Shown piece by piece: positions 1-13,096 of a DNA stretch of 21,234 nt (the stretch's first letter is position 1; each line of letters begins with the position of its first letter). The notes beneath the pieces were generated by a model. It was not told where the DNA came from, did no database searches, and saw only the letters and a list, made by a program, of their open reading frames with translations. This DNA comes from a virus. Location: the IMG/VR virus record IMGVR_UViG_3300036719_004242, positions 1 through 21,234 of that record; one strand, written 5' to 3'. Position numbers and translations under genes: made by a program.

Positions 1-1836
1 TAATGATTCTTCTTTATTTTTTGGGTCGTGGAAGTTTTTGAGAATATCGTAATTAACTATGACAAAATCTTCATTTGATGAGAAGTTCTTACCCTCACAT
101 ATATAAATTGATTTGTCAGTGTAGTTTTCGATTTCTCTCGCCCAATTTAATTTTAATGATGCGGGGCAAATAATCAAAACTTTTTTTGCTCCCGTTTCTA
201 ATGCCGCGATAATGGTTGAGGTTGTGTTATGGGTAACAATGCAATGTTCTGTGACATATAATTTATCGGGGGAATCTACTGAAATACAAACACTCTCTTC
301 AAATCCAACCTTTTCAATATTTTTAATATACCTACCTGTTGGATATTTTTTTTGTTCAACATATCTTTCAGATTTTCTTTTTAATCTAAATGGATTCATA
401 CCATTTGGTAATTTAATATTAACCCTATAAGCTAACTTACCTTTTTTTTTAATCCCATTATGTGTATAAGTTGCAATACTAGTTTTAACTCTTGCAATAC
501 CTCCTAATGTTTGGACAATTTCAACTACATCATCACAAAGTTGTTTTGAAATAGTACAAAATTCAGTCCCTAAAAAATTATCTTTTCCGTTGAACATACA
601 ATGCCCATCAGTATCCATTAATCCTTGTAGTATAGATAATCTATTTTCAACTGAAGAATATTTGTATATTTCTGGAATAAATTTATTAATTGCTTTTTTA
701 TCCGTCAATTTTAAATCATCCAAAATACTACCTATTTTTATTTTACCACCCTTTAAACTTTTTTTTGTTTTAATTGACGTTAAATTATATTTTGAAAACA
801 ATTCGTCATAGTCGTAATCTGACACTGTAAAAAAAATACTTTTACTTTTATCAAAATAACCATCACCGAGACTTAATCCTAAAAAATAAGGATCTATAGG
901 TAATACATTATTTAATTTAAATTGTATTGGTTTAACTATTGGGATTTGCCATTTATTATTACCATTTGGTGATTTATAATAAGTTTCAATTTCATATTTT
1001 TTATCTTTATTGTAGTCAATACCTTTAACATTAATTTTACCACCTTCAAACATCTGTTTGGTCGATAATACTAAAGATTTTTTTCGTCTATCATTTTTCC
1101 TATTATTACCGTAATTTGGTGACGATACAGACCATAAATGTGATCCGTCTGTTTTTATTTTAACACCGTCATTAAAGGTAATTTCATAAATTTCCTGTTC
1201 AGGTTGGGGATAAACTCCTGTGATTTTATATGATAATCCATCGCTACCTATTATTTCATCACCGACTAAAGAATCTCCAATTTTTTTAGTTCCATAGGGC
1301 GTATAAATAATTGTTGACTTCGGCATCCCTTTTCCGAGACCCATATCATCCGCTAAAATAAATCTTTTACTTCCGGCAAGTCTTTCTATTGCAATCTTTT
1401 GATGTTCTAACGGAGGACGATGTGAATATTTTGAATAATCAATCTTAACATCCTTAATTGAGTGTGTTTTAATTAGTGCGCCTTTCGGTAAATAAAAATC
1501 ATGATTAGTTTCCCCCGAAAAGAATTTTCCCCAAATATGGTAAGCTTTTTCCTTCTCAACCAAAAGTTTTTCAACCCAAACTTGATTTGGTATTTCTGTG
1601 TATAATTTATCATTAGCGATTTTCTTGGCAAAATAAGGATCCAACTCGACCCATTTTTTTGCTATTTTTGGGACTAAATTATTGTATAATGTTATATATT
1701 CAGATTGACTTCTTGTTGGATAAAACTTTTTGTTAGTTCCCTTAAGATGTTTTAATTTAAGAATATAGTTATTTGATCCCTGATAATCATCAAGGATATC
1801 CATTGCCCTTTGTTCAATTGTTTTTTTTGTATCCAA
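1..1836 (-). CDS. SNF2/SF2-type DNA helicase precursor interrupted by an intein (partial, runs off left edge)
   Basis: Open from a TTG at 1836 (first in-frame ATG at 1803) to base 1 without a stop, so only the N-terminal part is present. The first 169 residues (N-extein) include a Q-motif-like stretch HRPPLEHQKIAIERL followed by LADDMGLGK, the start of Walker A. An intein then intervenes (226-1329), and the frame resumes with TTSTIIAALETGAKKVLIICPASLK, covering the end of motif I and motif Ia. Removing the intein gives GLGKTTS, a normal SNF2/SF2 motif I. The DEAH box and the second RecA lobe lie outside the window. I prefer the TTG because the residues between it and the ATG continue a helix-like sequence (IEQRAMDILDDYQ), but the ATG is possible. 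The likely role is ATP-dependent DNA or branch remodelling in replication or recombination, as for T4 UvsW; that is inference. Divergent from the neck operon across 50 bp. Confidence 0.85.
   Translation of the reverse strand, partial: MDTKKTIEQRAMDILDDYQGSNNYILKLKHLKGTNKKFYPTRSQSEYITLYNNLVPKIAKKWVELDPYFAKKIANDKLYTEIPNQVWVEKLLVEKEKAYHIWGKFFSGETNHDFYLPKGALIKTHSIKDVKIDYSKYSHRPPLEHQKIAIERLAGSKRFILADDMGLGKGMPKSTIIYTPYGTKKIGDSLVGDEIIGSDGLSYKITGVYPQPEQEIYEITFNDGVKIKTDGSHLWSVSSPNYGNNRKNDRRKKSLVLSTKQMFEGGKINVKGIDYNKDKKYEIETYYKSPNGNNKWQIPIVKPIQFKLNNVLPIDPYFLGLSLGDGYFDKSKSIFFTVSDYDYDELFSKYNLTSIKTKKSLKGGKIKIGSILDDLKLTDKKAINKFIPEIYKYSSVENRLSILQGLMDTDGHCMFNGKDNFLGTEFCTISKQLCDDVVEIVQTLGGIARVKTSIATYTHNGIKKKGKLAYRVNIKLPNGMNPFRLKRKSERYVEQKKYPTGRYIKNIEKVGFEESVCISVDSPDKLYVTEHCIVTHNTTSTIIAALETGAKKVLIICPASLKLNWAREIENYTDKSIYICEGKNFSSNEDFVIVNYDILKNFHDPKNKEESL
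226..1329 (-). mobile_element. Class 3-type intein with LAGLIDADG homing endonuclease, inserted in helicase Walker A
   Basis: This is a 368-residue in-frame insertion between Lys and Thr of GLGK|TTS. It begins with a non-nucleophilic Gly (GMPKSTIIYTPYGTKKIGD, block A-like) and ends VTHN followed by Thr. Block B reads TDGSHLW with His64 and Trp66. Block F reads SVCISVD with Cys348. Block G is His367-Asn368, and the +1 extein residue is Thr. Trp at B:12, Cys at F:4 and Thr at +1 form the WCT signature known for class 3 inteins, which start splicing with the block F Cys instead of a residue 1 Cys/Ser. Between the splicing halves are two LAGLIDADG motifs, FLGLSLGDGY (residues 149-158, Asp156) and ILQGLMDTDG (233-242, Asp241). 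Both acidic residues are kept, so the endonuclease looks intact. The Walker A insertion point matches the known preference of inteins for invariant active sites. Confidence 0.9.
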
Positions 1837-3079: not shown

Positions 3080-3613
3080 ATGAAAATTATAATTAACGAA
3101 AATCAATACAAAAAAATATTAGAAACTGTCACAAATAAAGAAATAATTTGTGACAAATGTGGTTGGTCATGGGATTTATCTGATGGTGGAAATGACCCAT
3201 TCACTTGTCATAAATGTGGACATGATAATCAAGACAAAAAACATATTGGTGATAGAGTTATGGTTTATTATAATTTACATAAGCACACATTTTCTGTGAC
3301 TTATAATGGTGTAGTAATCACTCACGCTGATTATGTTAAATTAACCGATGTTGAATTTAGAGTTAGACAGGGGGGTAGAAAAAAAGTATTAAAAGAAAAA
3401 AGAAAAAATGTTCATTCATTTGTAATCGGAACATTAGAAGATTACTGTGAATTCCCTTGTAAAAACATACCGAACGAACCAAATAAAAATATTGTTACAT
3501 ATAATCCTTATATATATAGTACTTATGTGATGAAGGACACTGAAGAACCTATCTACCAAGCAAATAAAGTAGTTATGATTAATTCAAAAAATAAAATTTT
3601 CATAGTTAACTAA
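3080..3613 (+). CDS. Zinc-ribbon protein of unknown function
   Basis: 177 residues. A zinc-ribbon-like module is obvious: Cys24-x2-Cys27 (CDKCGWSWDLSDGG) and Cys43-x2-Cys46 (FTCHKCGHDN). This CDKCGWSW...CHKCGHDN form recurs in phage proteins of otherwise diverse type, where it seems to be a portable small domain. The rest (residues 55-177) has beta-strand-like segments (RVMVYYNLHKHTFSVTYNGVVI, VDFRVRQGG-like), a Lys/Arg-rich patch near residue 100 and two more Cys (EDYCEFPCKNIP). It may bind nucleic acid or be a structural accessory of the neck. The leader MKIIINENQYKKIL is shared in pattern with the gene at 2677. One base separates its stop from the next ATG. Confidence 0.7.
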   Translation: MKIIINENQYKKILETVTNKEIICDKCGWSWDLSDGGNDPFTCHKCGHDNQDKKHIGDRVMVYYNLHKHTFSVTYNGVVITHADYVKLTDVEFRVRQGGRKKVLKEKRKNVHSFVIGTLEDYCEFPCKNIPNEPNKNIVTYNPYIYSTYVMKDTEEPIYQANKVVMINSKNKIFIVN

Positions 3614-4755: not shown

Positions 4756-7700
4756 ATGGCAACTTCAACTAATAGTAAAGTGTTTGTGTCTCCAGGTGTG
4801 TATACATCCGAAGTAGATTTGAGTTTTGTGTCTCAAAGTGTCGGTGTTACAACCTTGGGTATTGTCGGTGAGACATTAAAAGGTCCTGCTTTTGAACCGA
4901 TTTTTATCAGAAATTATGATGAATTTTCACTTTATTTTGGTGGTACATCCCCCGAAAAATTTATAAACACACAAATTCCAAAATACGAAGCGGCGTATAT
5001 TGCAAAATCTTATTTGCAACAATCAAATCAATTGTTTGTTACCCGAATTTTAGGTTTATCAGGATATGACGCAGGACCTTCATGGTCAATTAAAACTATT
5101 GCAAATGTTGATCAATCAACAGTTGGATTTGAATGTACTAGTTCAACTACACTAAGTTGTATAACACAATGTGTACAATATAATGTAGTTCCTTATAGTT
5201 TTGATTTTACAGGATGTACAAATAATATAGAATCAATAAGTTATGTAACTCCTTTACCAAATATATTAAGTGAAGATATTAATGATTTATATGAACAATT
5301 TAATGGTAGTGTTTCTAACATAGGGGCGGATTTAAATAGTCAAATATTTTCTGTTTTAAATTCACCATCAAGTTCAGCATTCTCAATCAATTATTTTGGT
5401 GTTATAAGTGGAGATACTTATGAAACTTTATCAGGTTATACTGATGATACAAACGTATTTAACGTTAGTAATGTTAATTCAAATAATGTGGATTATACTG
5501 ATCCATTAAACGACGCTTGGTATTATGCTACATTTGACCACATTGGAAATAATTCTTATAGTGGTTATTCTTTTTATAGTACGGTACCGTCATTAACATT
5601 AACATCATCTCAATCAAATTGTGCATCGTTTTATAGTTATGAAGTAAGTTCATCAACTATAAGTACGGTGGTAGGAAACATAAATTATTTAACTAACACA
5701 ATAAATATTTGTTTACCATCCACCGCAACTACAGCGGATACTTCAGCGATGACTATCACGTATAGTGCATGTACAACAGGAGTAACATCAGATGCTGTTT
5801 TACAATCAGCAATAACTGAAAATTATGATTTTAGTGCTTTAACTAAATCATATGTTTTAACTTCTGAAGATGGTACTGTAACAACTAATTGGACAGTAAA
5901 TGTTTATGTAAATGACCCTTGTGGTGTTTGTGTGTCAGGAAATACTGGTACAATAGATACAGGGACTATCACTAATTGTTTTTCAGGTACTATTTCAGGT
6001 AATATTTATGTTTTTTCCGCCAATTCATTTAGTGATTACGATAATTTAGTTGTTGCAACATTAAGATCTAGAGGTTTAACAACATATTCTAGTGATAATG
6101 AACCCACATATGAAGTAACAGGATCTACTAATGTTTTTGGTAGCTTTATTGGTGATGATGTAACTTTGGATTGTTTAGGAAATTATTCAGCGGCAACAAA
6201 AAATCCTTTTAGTACATTTGGTATTAATGTAACTAATATACGAGGAGAAAATTTATTTTTTGAAACCTCATTTTTAAGAACAGATACTAACTTTATTACT
6301 AAGGTTTTTGGTCAATCGAATTTTTCTAAACCAAGAACAACAGTACCTTTATTTGTTGAGGAAGAATTTACCACTTTATTAAATTATGCATACAGAAAAG
6401 GTTATATTAGAGGGTTGGATTGTCAATTAACCGCTCTACCTAACGCAAGACAAGGTGTTGATCCTACTTCTATAGCATTTTATCTTGAAAAATACCAATC
6501 CCCAATCTCACCTTGGTTGGTTTCTGAAGTTAGAGGTAACAAAGTTTATAATTTGTTTAGATTCATGACAATTGCTGATGGTAATGCGGCAAATACGGAA
6601 TTAAAAATTTCAGTCGCTAATATATCATTTAATAATGGTTCATTTGATTTATTAATTAGAGATTATTTTGATACTGATTCCGCACCTGTTGTACTTGAAA
6701 AATTCACAAATTGTAACATGGATCCTAACGATAACAATTTTGTTGCAAAAAAGATAGGTACAATAGACGGAGAATATCAACTCAACTCAAAGTATGTAAT
6801 GATTGAGATTAATGAAGATGCTCCTGTAGATGCTTTACCTTGTGGATTCTTGGGTTATAACTTTAGAGAATATGGTGATGCAACACCTCCATTCCCAATT
6901 TATAAAACAAAATATAACTTCCCTGGTGAAGTAATTTGGAATCCTCCTTTTGGGTTATCAACAGGTGGTGACGATCAAATATTAAGTAACGGTGATAACG
7001 TTCGTAAAACTTACTTAGGAATGTCTAATTCAGATGATGCCGGTTATGACGTAGATTTCTTTGGGTATAAAGGTAAACAATTACCAACTCAAGTTTGTAC
7101 AGCAATAGAAGGTAATAATTGGGCTTATAGAACTAAAGGTTTCCATATGGATATTATGGCGTCAGCAATTACCATACCTGATATATTTGTTACTTCAGGA
7201 GAATCCGCTTTCTATGTTGGTTCTGCAACATTCCAATCTGAACCTGAAACAGAAACAAGTCCTTATTACAGATTATTCTCTCGTAAATTTACTCTTTTTG
7301 TACAAGGCGGTTTTGATGGTTGGGACATATATAGAGAATATAGAACCAATGGTGATAGATTTGCTTTAGGTAGAAATGGTTATTTAAGAGGGGCTTGTAG
7401 TTCTACAAATTATCCAACAGCCACAGGTTGGGGAGCGTTTAAACAAATTACAGTTGGTGATAATTCTGTAGATTGGGCAAACACCGACTATTACGCTTAC
7501 AAATTAGGTATTAACACATTTTCAAATCCTGAAGCAGTAAACATAAATTTATTTGTTACACCTGGTGTTGATTATGTTAATAACTCAGATGTAGTTGAAC
7601 ACGCAATTGATGTTATTGAAAATGACAGAGCGGATTCACTTTACATTTGTACAACACCTGATTTTCAAATGTTTACACCTTCATCAACAAATCCACAAGA

Positions 7701-8373
7701 TTTAATTTATCCACAAGAAGCTGTAGATAATTTAGATCAAACAGGAATTGATTCAAATTATACGGCTACTTACTATCCTTGGGTATTAACAAGAGATTCG
7801 GTTAATAACACTCAAGTTTATATTCCTCCAACAGCAGAGGTAACTAGAAATTTAGCTTTAACAGATAACATTGCTTTTCCTTGGTTTGCCGCGGCGGGTT
7901 ATACAAGAGGTATTGTTAATTCAATTAAAGCCCGTAAAAAATTAACTCAAGAAGATAGAGATGTACTTTATAAAGGTAGAATTAATCCAATAGCCACTTT
8001 TTCAGATGTTGGTACCGTAATTTGGGGTAATAAAACTTTACAAGTAAGGGAATCTGCTCTAGACCGTATAAATGTAAGACGTTTATTGTTACAGGCTAGA
8101 AAATTAATATCCGCGGTTTCAATAAGATTATTGTTTGAACAAAATGATGCGGTTGTTAGACAACAATTCTTAGACACTGTTAACCCTATATTAGACGCAA
8201 TTAGAAGAGATAGAGGTTTATACGATTTCCGTGTAACTGTATCTTCAGATCCGGCTGATTTGGATAGAAACCAATTAACGGGTAAGATATATATTAAACC
8301 TACTAAGAGTTTAGAATTTATCGATATAACATTCTATATCACACCAACAGGTGCTTCATTTGAAAACATTTAA
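4756..8373 (+). CDS. Tail sheath protein (gp18-like), unusually long
   Basis: 1205 residues, about twice T4 gp18 (659). The N-terminus has the classic sheath signature VFVSPGVYTSEVDLSFV followed by VGVTTLGIVGETLKGPAFEP and a LYFGG turn. The C-terminus has the conserved polymerisation domain (AAGYTRGIV, ARKLISAVSIRLLFEQND, then RDRGLYDFRVTVSSD and KIYIKPTKSLEFIDITFYI). Sheath subunits stack around the tube and contract to drive it into the host. Between about residues 125 and 500 lies a Thr/Ser/Asn-rich, Cys-containing insertion (ECTSS, SCITQCVQ, DPCGVCVSGNTG) that looks like one or more beta-sandwich decoration domains. The ATG is preceded by an A-rich leader and no Shine-Dalgarno. The gene ends 20 bp before a strong terminator. 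Confidence 0.95.
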   Translation: MATSTNSKVFVSPGVYTSEVDLSFVSQSVGVTTLGIVGETLKGPAFEPIFIRNYDEFSLYFGGTSPEKFINTQIPKYEAAYIAKSYLQQSNQLFVTRILGLSGYDAGPSWSIKTIANVDQSTVGFECTSSTTLSCITQCVQYNVVPYSFDFTGCTNNIESISYVTPLPNILSEDINDLYEQFNGSVSNIGADLNSQIFSVLNSPSSSAFSINYFGVISGDTYETLSGYTDDTNVFNVSNVNSNNVDYTDPLNDAWYYATFDHIGNNSYSGYSFYSTVPSLTLTSSQSNCASFYSYEVSSSTISTVVGNINYLTNTINICLPSTATTADTSAMTITYSACTTGVTSDAVLQSAITENYDFSALTKSYVLTSEDGTVTTNWTVNVYVNDPCGVCVSGNTGTIDTGTITNCFSGTISGNIYVFSANSFSDYDNLVVATLRSRGLTTYSSDNEPTYEVTGSTNVFGSFIGDDVTLDCLGNYSAATKNPFSTFGINVTNIRGENLFFETSFLRTDTNFITKVFGQSNFSKPRTTVPLFVEEEFTTLLNYAYRKGYIRGLDCQLTALPNARQGVDPTSIAFYLEKYQSPISPWLVSEVRGNKVYNLFRFMTIADGNAANTELKISVANISFNNGSFDLLIRDYFDTDSAPVVLEKFTNCNMDPNDNNFVAKKIGTIDGEYQLNSKYVMIEINEDAPVDALPCGFLGYNFREYGDATPPFPIYKTKYNFPGEVIWNPPFGLSTGGDDQILSNGDNVRKTYLGMSNSDDAGYDVDFFGYKGKQLPTQVCTAIEGNNWAYRTKGFHMDIMASAITIPDIFVTSGESAFYVGSATFQSEPETETSPYYRLFSRKFTLFVQGGFDGWDIYREYRTNGDRFALGRNGYLRGACSSTNYPTATGWGAFKQITVGDNSVDWANTDYYAYKLGINTFSNPEAVNINLFVTPGVDYVNNSDVVEHAIDVIENDRADSLYICTTPDFQMFTPSSTNPQDLIYPQEAVDNLDQTGIDSNYTATYYPWVLTRDSVNNTQVYIPPTAEVTRNLALTDNIAFPWFAAAGYTRGIVNSIKARKKLTQEDRDVLYKGRINPIATFSDVGTVIWGNKTLQVRESALDRINVRRLLLQARKLISAVSIRLLFEQNDAVVRQQFLDTVNPILDAIRRDRGLYDFRVTVSSDPADLDRNQLTGKIYIKPTKSLEFIDITFYITPTGASFENI

Positions 8374-8424: not shown

Positions 8425-9945
8425 TTATAGAACCATTTCAAATTTTATTGAACCGCAATCCCAAATCCTATCATAGTTTTTTTCTTGCATTATTTCCCAT
8501 TCAGTTTTTTCTTTTGAGTAACCCTCTTTAACCAAAACATTTTTTCTGAATGTGTATCTATGATATCTATTAATAAACTTTTTCTTATCAACATACCAAT
8601 AATTAGGTGGTGTTATATCAATCTTATTAAAACCTATTTTTGAATACACCATTTTTTCGGGGTTAATACCAGACCATCTAATATCAGAATATGTAATTAT
8701 TTTTGTTGGATTTTGTGATTTTATAAAATGATTAAGTAATTTAGAGAAACCCCCAATTACGTTTGTGTTTATTTTATTACAAAATCTTATTAATTCATAC
8801 TCACTATTCAAGTTTTCTTTTTTACTAATAAATTTCCTTTTATTTCCAAATGTAATTAAACTAACCAATTCATTTTTGTAGAACAAACCGAATCTATATT
8901 TATCAATCGACATACCTTGTATATGATTTTTTTCCAAAAATTCGGAAGAAGTTTTTTTATCAATTTCTTTTATTTCACACAAACGAGCGTATATTCTATC
9001 ATTTAAATTCAATAGATTTGATAATCTTGATAGTGTTATCTCTTTTTTTAGGATTAATTCATCTTCAAAAATCTGTATTAATTTTATACCTTGTTTTTCA
9101 GACTCTATTGTTTTATTTAAATGATAATTTTTGTTTTTTTCACCCATTATTTCACTGTGAAAATAATTTCCGTTTACCTCAATACCTAAATTAAAATCAG
9201 GTATAAATATATCTATCTCACCACAGTTAGTTAAGTTTCTTTTATTGTCAATATGTTTTATACCATTATCATCCAAAAAATCTTTAATAATTAATTCTAA
9301 TTTGGGGTTTTTAACAATAGGAAAACATTTTCTACAAATAGGTATTTTACCTGAACCTAATAATGTACTGGTAAAAATACTATTACAATCTAAACATTGA
9401 AATGAATATGATAAAGAAGTATTCCCACTCTTATTGATAGAATAATCGTCCAATAACTTTATATTATTCTTTTCCAATTTTGGAATCAAATTTTTCAGAT
9501 GTCTGTTTCTTACAGTATTTTTTAATTTATTTATAAAATCAGGCACATACATTGGATGTTCAACACCATATTTAGACAAAAAACTTTGTTTGTTTTTAAC
9601 TTTAAATTCGTCTAATTTGTACAAACTGTCAACACCATATTTTTCTAATAAAGACTCTTTAGTTTTTTTAATTCTATATTCTTTATTTTCTTTTTTGTTT
9701 TGCCATATCTCTCGACATTCTTTTGAACATAGTTTTTTTTCGTGTTTTTTTCTTTCCACAAATTCATTTCCACATTGAACACAGTATCTTTTTTCTCTTA
9801 CTGTATTATCTTTTTCTCTACCAAGTAGATCATTTTTTCTTGCAAAATCAAAATAACATTTTCTACCACAAAATTTTTTGTTTCTTTGTTTATATGGTGC
9901 CTTAAATTTTTCGCAACAATTTTGGCAATTAAGTTCAATTTCCAT
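8425..9945 (-). CDS. Freestanding homing endonuclease, Vsr-like (EDxHD-type) with zinc knuckles
   Basis: 506 residues. N-terminal zinc-binding pairs are Cys7/Cys10-Cys26/Cys30 and Cys55/Cys58-Cys73/Cys77. Residues about 93-150 hold two NUMOD-like DNA-contact repeats (ESLLEKYGVDSLYKLDEFK; QSFLSKYGVEHPMYVPDFI). A third zinc pair follows (Cys184/187, Cys204/207). The nuclease core at about 214-296 shows KLELIIKDFL, EIDIFIPDFNLGIEVNGNYF, His263, YHLNK and LIQIFEDE, matching PD-(D/E)xK/Vsr-like homing endonucleases of the I-Bth0305I type. The last 200 residues (ARLCEIKEID, NHIQG, ELVSLITFG, GGFSKLLNHF, YSDIRW, PNYWYV) look like a GNAT-fold-type domain often attached to such phage nucleases. It lies between sheath and HAD genes on the opposite strand and probably spreads its own locus by cutting phages that lack it. 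Paralogue at 11516-13096. Confidence 0.85.
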   Translation of the reverse strand: MEIELNCQNCCEKFKAPYKQRNKKFCGRKCYFDFARKNDLLGREKDNTVREKRYCVQCGNEFVERKKHEKKLCSKECREIWQNKKENKEYRIKKTKESLLEKYGVDSLYKLDEFKVKNKQSFLSKYGVEHPMYVPDFINKLKNTVRNRHLKNLIPKLEKNNIKLLDDYSINKSGNTSLSYSFQCLDCNSIFTSTLLGSGKIPICRKCFPIVKNPKLELIIKDFLDDNGIKHIDNKRNLTNCGEIDIFIPDFNLGIEVNGNYFHSEIMGEKNKNYHLNKTIESEKQGIKLIQIFEDELILKKEITLSRLSNLLNLNDRIYARLCEIKEIDKKTSSEFLEKNHIQGMSIDKYRFGLFYKNELVSLITFGNKRKFISKKENLNSEYELIRFCNKINTNVIGGFSKLLNHFIKSQNPTKIITYSDIRWSGINPEKMVYSKIGFNKIDITPPNYWYVDKKKFINRYHRYTFRKNVLVKEGYSKEKTEWEIMQEKNYDRIWDCGSIKFEMVL

Positions 9946-11495: not shown

Positions 11496-11523
11496 AAATC
11501 CATATATTTATGTATATGGATTT
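11496..11523 (+). promoter_or_regulatory. Hairpin covering the homing endonuclease start, with an ATATTTAT element inside
   Basis: AAATCCATATA (11496-11506) pairs perfectly over 11 bp with TATATGGATTT (11513-11523) around the 6-nt loop TTTATG. The right arm contains the ATG at 11516. ATATTTAT (11504-11511) spans the end of the left arm and the loop. A U-rich run follows the stem. Read-through RNA from the tube gene would fold and hide the start, and might terminate; RNA started from the internal element would lack the left arm and be free. Confidence 0.6.
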
Positions 11524-13096
11524 TTATTTTTTTAGAGATCAAAATAAGTCGGGGTACAAAACAAATGAAAAATGGTTATTAAAAAACCATCCTGATGTTT
11601 ATAATTCAATAATTAATTATTGTGGTGATATTGAATTTGAAACAAATTTCAAAGAAAAAATATGGTTTTTTTTTAATAAAACTAAAGAAAGACCTAGATG
11701 TTTAACTTGCCAAAATAGTATTAAATTTAGAAATAGGTTGGATAAACCTTATGGTGATTTTTGTTCATTAGACTGTTTTAACAAAAACAAAAATGAAATG
11801 ATTGATCGTCAGAAAAAAACTTTCAATAAAAAATATAGTATTGATTTCTATCCTCAACACATCGACTTCATTAAAAAACAAAAAAATACTAAAAAAGAAA
11901 GATACGGCGATGAGAACTATAATAATTTTGAAAAATCAAAAATAACAAGAAAAGAAAAATATGGGTCTGAAAACTATAACAATCAAGAAAAGTTAAAAAA
12001 AACAATTTTTAGTTTATATGGGTCAGATAATATCTCCAAAACTAACTGGTATAAAAAACAAATATTAAAAAATATTCAAGATAAATACCCAAACGTTAAT
12101 ATAAAATCTGCGGATAAGACTGTATTAAAAATACATTGTCCTAAATGTAATAGTGATTATGAGATAACCAAACAATTATTATATGAAAGATATAAAAGAG
12201 ATTATGAGACTTGTGTTTTGTGTAATCCAATAGGTCAAAGTTCACAAAGTGGGTATGAAAAAGAAATGGTGGAGTTCTTAAACTCTTTAGATGTACAAAC
12301 TGTACAATCATATCGACAAATGAACAGTAAATACGAAGTAGATGTTTATTTACCCGAATATAATATTGGATTAGAATTTAATGGTGTATATTGGCATAAT
12401 GAATTATTTAAAGACAACAACTACCATTTAAATAAACATGATATTTGTAAAGAAAATAATATTGATTTACTTCAAATATTTGAGGATGAATGGTTATATA
12501 AAAAAGATATTGTTAAATCAATAATAAAAAATAGAATTAATAAATCTGAAAATGTTTTGTATGCGAGGAAATGTGTAATAAAAACCGTTGATACTCAAAC
12601 ATCCAAAAAATTTTTAGACGATAATCATATTCAAGGAAATGTTTATACCAAAGTAAAGTTGGGATTATATTATAATAATGAATTGGTGTCTTTAATGACT
12701 TTTTCTAAGGGTAGAGTTATTATGGGAGGTGATAATAATGAATGGGAGTTAACTAGATTTACAAATAAAATAAACTACTCTGTAGTTGGGGGAGCGTCTA
12801 AATTATTTAATTTTTTTATTAAAAATTTTAAACCACTCAAAGTAGTATCTTATTCCGATATTAGATTATTCGGAGGTAATTTATATAATAAATTAGGGTT
12901 TAAAAAAATATCACAATCAAAACCTAATTATTGGTATGTGATAAACGATAAGAGATACTACAGATTTAATTATCGAAAGGGAATCTTAATCAAACAAGGG
13001 TATGATAAAAATAAAACAGAAAAAGAAATAATGTTTGACAGAGGAATCTATAGAATATATGATTGTGGAAATATAAGGTGGGAGTATATTCTGTGA
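11516..13096 (+). CDS. Second freestanding homing endonuclease, Vsr-like with tandem DNA-contact repeats
   Basis: 526 residues from the ATG at 11516. An ATG two codons upstream (11510) is less likely because it lies inside the ATATTTAT element, whose spacing matches the other starts. It has an N-terminal zinc pair (CLTCQ...FCSLDCF), then three or four repeats of about 20-23 residues (KKERYGDENYNNFEKSK, RKEKYGSENYNNQEKLKK, IFSLYGSDNISK) of the NUMOD type, then a second zinc pair (CPKCNSDY...CVLC). The nuclease core follows (EVDVYLPEYNIGLEFNGVYW, NNYHLNK, LLQIFEDEW). The C-terminal part parallels the gene at 8425-9945 (NHIQG, ELVSLMTF, GGASKLFNFF, YSDIR, PNYWYV, IYDCGNIRWE). It lies between tube and tape-measure genes and ends with TGA, unlike the TAA of its neighbours. 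Confidence 0.85.
   Translation: MDFYFFRDQNKSGYKTNEKWLLKNHPDVYNSIINYCGDIEFETNFKEKIWFFFNKTKERPRCLTCQNSIKFRNRLDKPYGDFCSLDCFNKNKNEMIDRQKKTFNKKYSIDFYPQHIDFIKKQKNTKKERYGDENYNNFEKSKITRKEKYGSENYNNQEKLKKTIFSLYGSDNISKTNWYKKQILKNIQDKYPNVNIKSADKTVLKIHCPKCNSDYEITKQLLYERYKRDYETCVLCNPIGQSSQSGYEKEMVEFLNSLDVQTVQSYRQMNSKYEVDVYLPEYNIGLEFNGVYWHNELFKDNNYHLNKHDICKENNIDLLQIFEDEWLYKKDIVKSIIKNRINKSENVLYARKCVIKTVDTQTSKKFLDDNHIQGNVYTKVKLGLYYNNELVSLMTFSKGRVIMGGDNNEWELTRFTNKINYSVVGGASKLFNFFIKNFKPLKVVSYSDIRLFGGNLYNKLGFKKISQSKPNYWYVINDKRYYRFNYRKGILIKQGYDKNKTEKEIMFDRGIYRIYDCGNIRWEYIL

Follow-up and report, generated by a model that had tools for sequence, protein, structure and literature searches.

A predicted class 3 intein bearing a LAGLIDADG homing endonuclease interrupts the Walker A loop of a phage SNF2-family helicase and has mosaic same-site relatives

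Our data point, with a probability of roughly 0.93, to a class 3 intein that holds a nested LAGLIDADG homing endonuclease and interrupts the Walker A loop of a phage SNF2-family helicase at GK^T (^, insertion point). This assignment draws on sequence and on a predicted fold, and it concerns a stretch of DNA (here, the window) that is the entire 21,234-base virus record IMGVR_UViG_3300036719_004242. The window intein is of a known class, in a known kind of host and at a known kind of site; what seems to be new lies at the level of its family, namely a free residue 1, Cys1 forms with a full Trp-Cys-Thr (WCT) signature, a link between Gly1 and Asp at block B position 7 (B:7), and mosaic halves. 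No report of such an allelic series was found among open-licence papers. The relevant features are as follows.

1330..1836, minus strand: N-extein of the SNF2 helicase, 169 aa from a TTG start, ending in ...ADDMGLGK (reading frame, and a Pfam SNF2-rel_dom match split by the insert)
226..1329, minus strand: predicted class 3 intein, 368 aa, with nested LAGLIDADG homing endonuclease (sequence, alignments and predicted fold)
1327..1329, minus strand: Gly1, block A:1, without a side-chain nucleophile (Phe, Ala, Gly, Cys or Met in same-site relatives)
1132..1149, minus strand: block B core D61-G-S-H64-L-W66, with Asp B:7, His B:10 and Trp B:12, the W of WCT (sequence and relatives)
853..888, minus strand: LAGLIDADG motif 1 (YFLGLSLGDGYF, Asp156; Asp156 in 48 of 48 alleles)
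604..639, minus strand: LAGLIDADG motif 2 (LSILQGLMDTDG, Asp241; Asp239 and Asp241 in 48 of 48 alleles; Pfam LAGLIDADG_3)
286..288, minus strand: Cys348, block F:4, the C of WCT, predicted first nucleophile and branch point (conservation, and alignment with the Mch DnaB1 Cys)
232..234, minus strand: Thr366, block G:5, the T of WCT (198 of 198 distinct relatives)
226..231, minus strand: His367-Asn368, with the terminal Asn for predicted cyclisation (sequence and conservation)
223..225, minus strand: Thr+1, first C-extein residue, predicted second nucleophile (sequence; invariant in alleles)
1..225, minus strand: start of the C-extein, TTSTIIAALET..., with the remainder in contigs L002-L003 (reading frame and related contigs)

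The host gene occupies the minus-strand frame 1836..1 (612 aa), which, as the original prediction had noted, leaves the window without a stop. The same gene is present in three other IMG/VR contigs (L002-L004) at 99.9% DNA identity across 5.3 kb, which rules out an assembly artefact. With the missing 3' end supplied from L002, the protein has about 950 aa from the TTG start, or about 582 aa without the intein, the expected spliced length. Pfam finds both SNF2-rel_dom (6e-30, split by the insert) and Helicase_C (3e-18) in this full-length protein, and the window neighbours include the T4-type tail genes for a sheath, a gp19-like tube and T4_baseplate, so that the proposed SNF2-type phage helicase in a T4-type tail locus was borne out.

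The helicase frame reads ...RFILADDMGLGK, then GMPKST...(368 aa)...IVTHN, then TTSTIIAALET.... In 80 intein-free helicase relatives (L082-L161, 67-86% identical), RFILADDMGLGK is joined without a gap to TTSTIIAALET or close variants, and the empty sites read GLGK^TT(S/A) or close variants; these ungapped sites fix both boundaries of the intein. A comparison of the occupied L024 with the empty L147, whose exteins are 99% identical at the protein level, revealed a clean insertion after the Lys codon of GGGAAA/GGAAAA and before ACAAC(A/C). Gly is thereby the first and Asn the last residue of the insert, and Thr stands at +1, so that the span first proposed (368 residues between GLGK and TTS, at 226-1329) is exact. 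A boundary one residue later (GLGKG^M) was ruled out, since the empty sites lack the extra Gly; the comparison with empty sites also upholds the earlier statement that residue 1 is no nucleophile, as the other boundaries likewise offer none.

Class 3 inteins are defined by the WCT signature, i.e., Trp at B:12, Cys at F:4, and Thr at G:5 (PMC3196547; PMC7891396; PMC5050341). The window intein has Gly1 (rather than Cys, Ser, or Thr), Trp66 at B:12, Cys348 at F:4, and Thr366 at G:5, along with His64 at B:10, a His367-Asn368 end, and Thr+1. The original prediction had placed His64, Trp66, Cys348, the terminal His-Asn, and Thr+1 correctly, and its class assignment is supported by these residues and by the predicted fold. 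It was mistaken in taking Thr+1 for the T of WCT: this T is Thr366, the Thr of Thr-His-Asn, whereas Thr+1 is the second nucleophile (the reading of Thr+1 as the WCT threonine was rejected on PMC3196547, PMC5050341, and PMC7891396). Since both threonines are present, the class call stands regardless.

By sequence, the class 3 Mch DnaB1 intein (6rix, 2e-7) comes closest among solved structures, and the His-Trp pair, Cys F:4, and THN align with it; the best PDB sequence matches are class 3, but the gp41-1 intein and its WCT variant are close behind. An AlphaFold model of the intein, built from a 42-row alignment (pLDDT 80), adopts a predicted HINT fold that superposes on 6bs8 and 6rix (Z 17, 1.4-2.0 Å). 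More specifically, model residues 21 to 388 (intein residues 1 to 368) align end to end with residues 1 to 139 of the class 3 Msm DnaB intein 6bs8, over 123 residues at 1.4 Å and Z 17.3. The whole model aligns with PI-SceI and other LAGLIDADG-bearing inteins at a Z of about 20-23. The endonuclease looks intact: both LAGLIDADG motifs carry their acidic residues, and LAGLIDADG_3 is recovered in the window protein with a score just over the Pfam cut-off. By sequence and predicted fold, the window intein belongs to class 3.

A scan of viral contigs returned 80 best-match loci (L002-L081) whose inteins are 51-100% identical to that of the window, and the same helicase hosts them wherever the flank is readable. 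Complete sequences numbered 71 including the window's, 48 of them distinct, and these 48 alleles were selected by overall similarity. Cys348, THN, and Thr+1 are invariant among them, as are the endonuclease acids Asp156 and Asp241 (48 of 48), and Cys348 is also kept in 8 phage relatives. Residue 1, on the other hand, is Phe in 15 alleles, Ala in 13, Gly in 11, Cys in 8, and Met in 1. A position that accepts Phe, Ala, Gly, Cys, or Met is not a required nucleophile, and this lends comparative support to attack by Cys348. We extended the analysis to 198 distinct relatives from viruses and bacteria, which were accepted only with Cys F:4 and a terminal HN (213 of 216 passed), and therefore the conservation of those two features in this set is partly by construction. 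Thr366 was not a selection criterion and is found in all 198, while residue 1 is Ala in 126, Gly in 21, Phe in 17, Cys in 12, Ser in 12, Met in 3, Val in 3, Leu in 2, and Asp in 2. A 378-residue group (L067, L071, L073, L076, L079, and L194) has Phe in place of Trp at B:12, and hence FCT rather than WCT.

These patterns bear on whether the intein might instead resemble class 2, in which Thr+1 would attack the N-terminal junction directly and Cys348 would be a bystander. Such chemistry would suit the co-occurrence of Gly1 and Thr+1, but the intein carries Trp B:12, Cys F:4, and Thr G:5, Cys348 and Thr366 are invariant while residue 1 varies, the closest solved relatives are class 3, and KlbA genes were the only place where class 2 inteins had been found (PMC3196547); we consider it extremely improbable.

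The Cys1 forms raise a different question. All 12 in the wide set lie in phage SNF2 genes, and a complete Trp-Cys-Thr accompanies Cys1 in L008, L009, L013, L017, L019, L021, L022, L024, L187, L190, L192, and L193. Searches that define class 3 by the absence of Cys1 would miss such forms. The presence of 12 distinct Cys1 alleles within phage SNF2 genes of one family could mean that Cys1 alleles are ancestral class 1 inteins and that the Gly1, Phe1, and Ala1 alleles, the window's included, are their damaged descendants. However, Cys1 changes at least 5 times and is placed among Ala1 and Phe1 rows, most members of the wide class 3-type set have Ala1, and the Cys1 alleles themselves keep the Trp/Cys/Thr signature, which makes class 1 chemistry exceedingly unlikely here.

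With class 3 as the preferred reading, we infer that the window intein splices and cleaves DNA. Cys348 (F:4), aided by His64 (B:10) and Thr366 (G:5), would attack the Lys-Gly1 peptide bond directly, yielding a branched thioester; the N-extein would then pass to Thr+1, Asn368 would cyclise with the assistance of His367 and release the intein, and the ester would rearrange to a peptide bond, restoring GLGKTTST. As the intein interrupts Walker A, the helicase should bind ATP properly only once spliced. The endonuclease would cut intein-free helicase alleles, whose repair would copy the intein in.

In the class 3 AceL NrdHF intein, changing Ala1 to Gly abolished splicing (PMC7891396), and by analogy Gly1 might impair the window intein unless compensated. 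This result, together with a decayed class 3 intein already known (PMC3196547), gives some room for a decayed or splice-defective intein that has kept its endonuclease, comparable to Arsp-FB24 Arth_1007. Yet every catalytic position is intact, the frame is open and the helicase is intact around the intein in related contigs, an unspliced protein with an interrupted Walker A should lose ATP binding, and Gly1 alleles are widespread (21 distinct), nearly all with Asp B:7. We therefore regard decay as very unlikely and retain a functional class 3 intein as the preferred reading.

The association of Gly1 with block B was quantified across the 198 distinct relatives. Asp occurs at B:7 in 20 of 21 Gly1 alleles versus 45 of 177 with another residue 1, and Glu at B:9 in none of the 21 versus 137 of the 177 others. 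On a 65-row tree built without residue 1 or the block B columns concerned, at least 10 changes of Gly1 are needed, and across 8 independent, supported comparisons Asp went with Gly in nearly every pairing (average 7.8 of 8, p 0.008). Relatives that do not belong to the phage SNF2 family show the link too, in weaker form (5 of 6 versus 44 of 131, Fisher p 0.02). The crystal structure of AceL NrdHF puts the B:7 residue close enough for a hydrogen bond to the residue 1 carbonyl and the N-scissile bond (PMC7891396), and by analogy Asp B:7 may be what makes Gly1 workable. The link also bears on a published puzzle, as the Ala1-to-Gly change was fatal to AceL NrdHF splicing, yet Gly1 is common in nature.

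The alleles are mosaics at the DNA level, in which differing N-terminal segments are joined to near-identical C-terminal halves. The exteins of L186 (Gly1) and L185 (Leu1) share 97-99% DNA identity, and their intein DNA is mostly 95-100% identical over codons 81-140 and 261-380, but identity drops to 62-82% in codons 1-80 and to 53-85% between codons of about 141 and 260. The same pattern was found for L028 (Gly) and L046 (Phe), and for the window (Gly) and L007 (Phe). Among 14 Gly1 alleles, the nearest row is also Gly1 for 11 over residues 9-55 versus 2 over residues 69-144. An AU test rejects the grouping of Gly1 alleles in one clade over the C-terminal part (p 0.0003), whereas such a clade is not rejected over the N-terminal part (p 0.096). 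The mosaic pairs indicate that the stretch from residue 1 to about residue 68 moves as a unit, so that the Gly1-Asp(B:7) link is partly descent of that segment; repeated independent co-mutation was accordingly not accepted as its sole cause, the segment having moved as a block at least in part. In the three pairs (L185/L186, L028/L046, and window/L007), DNA identity is as low as 44-60% in parts of codons ~141-260, between the LAGLIDADG motifs, and up to 100% elsewhere; this segment is an exchanged or fast-evolving part of the endonuclease despite the same target site.

Collectively, these observations could describe a one-site mosaic series in which Gly, Phe, Ala, Leu, Met, or Cys at residue 1 is set on a conserved Cys348/Thr366 half, and in which Gly1 is tolerated only with Asp B:7 and without Glu B:9, in the region that holds the strained N-scissile bond; we offer this tentatively, at somewhat less than an even chance. 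Mosaic alleles of this kind are natural half-swaps that present one Cys348-bearing C-terminal half with differing residues 1. There is dispute over the origin of class 3 from class 1: an attempt to graft WCT onto gp41-1, a class 1 intein, did not succeed, and its authors argue that direct conversion is implausible (PMC7664689). Same-site alleles in near-identical hosts, with a varied residue 1 (Cys included) and block B on a common C-terminal half, make that origin testable by natural half swaps. Such related natural variants, which could test how class 3 splicing works, matter more than the window intein, which by itself adds one more class 3 intein to those in nucleotide-binding loops.

With regard to mobility, a tree of exteins from 50 occupied and 71 empty alleles (best matches of two scans, so that their ratio carries no meaning) required at least 14 changes of occupancy, versus a mean of 39 and a lowest value of 31 for shuffled labels. 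This patchy scatter fits homing. The inteins of the next clade out (L199, L202, L206, L209, and L212) lie in a terminase-large-subunit-type protein, at an EGK^TTTS site. This site resembles the helicase GLGK^TTS, which is what one would expect from a jump between similar homing targets.

Both the supposed rarity of class 3 and the suggestion that its host gene may be new were refuted. By 2020, 1,701 class 3 inteins were present in nr, with LAGLIDADG motifs in 82.5%, and SNF2 was rejected as a new class 3 host on examples from Deinococcus, Hymenobacter, and a Brevundimonas phage. The Snf2 intein of Deinococcus radiodurans, one of the founding class 3 examples and an experimentally established one (PMC3196547), is like the window's a class 3 intein in an SNF2-family helicase, and experiments have detected a branched intermediate at its block F (Brace et al. 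2010, cited in PMC3196547); it differs in its bacterial host. Chromosomal SNF2 inteins of Hymenobacter (L252, L253, and L256) share the GLGK^T site and the class 3 signature at 35-37% identity, and L253, like the window gene, carries SNF2-rel_dom, Helicase_C, and LAGLIDADG_3; they differ in having Ala1 and Cys at B:7, and their helicase is much longer (L253 ORF, 1343 aa), with an SNF2_assoc region. The sequenced Brevundimonas phage vB_BpoS-Papperlapapp (L164) also has a class 3 signature at the GLGK^T site of an SNF2 helicase, but with Met1, 348 aa, and 37% identity, in a gene annotated only as 'helicase'.

The DnaB class 3 inteins of Mycobacterium chimaera and M. smegmatis (6rix and 6bs8) resemble the window's in fold, His-Trp block B, Cys F:4, and THN, whereas they are mini-inteins without an endonuclease. 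Closest are the uncultured-phage inteins (L002-L081 and part of L170-L198), in the same gene at the same site and 51-100% identical, which differ between alleles in residue 1, block B, and the middle endonuclease segment. Chromosomal genes of Eremiobacterota and a 484-kb uncultured phage likewise have class 3-type inteins at the GK^T of an SNF2 helicase, and inteins in a HepA-related helicase of mycobacteriophages had been tabulated in 2016 (PMC5050341).

Several further observations concern the window itself. The precursor matches 'terminase' and 'primase' PHROG profiles mostly over its intein part, and these matches probably reflect inteins within those profiles. Two free-standing genes match PHROG 3339 (homing endonuclease), at 8425-9945 (minus strand, 3e-110) and 11510-13096 (plus strand, 5e-112); they flank a stretch with the gp19-like tail tube gene, and counting the intein there are three endonuclease elements in the 21-kb window. 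The plus-strand gene at 3080-3613 strongly matches the Mycobacterium phage L5 gp82 family (Pfam PF25735, 1e-30), and the N-terminal part of its protein has paired CxxC motifs (CDKCGW...CHKCGH). The tail sheath gene (4756-8373, plus strand) encodes 1205 aa, with the Pfam sheath matches confined to about the last 280 residues.
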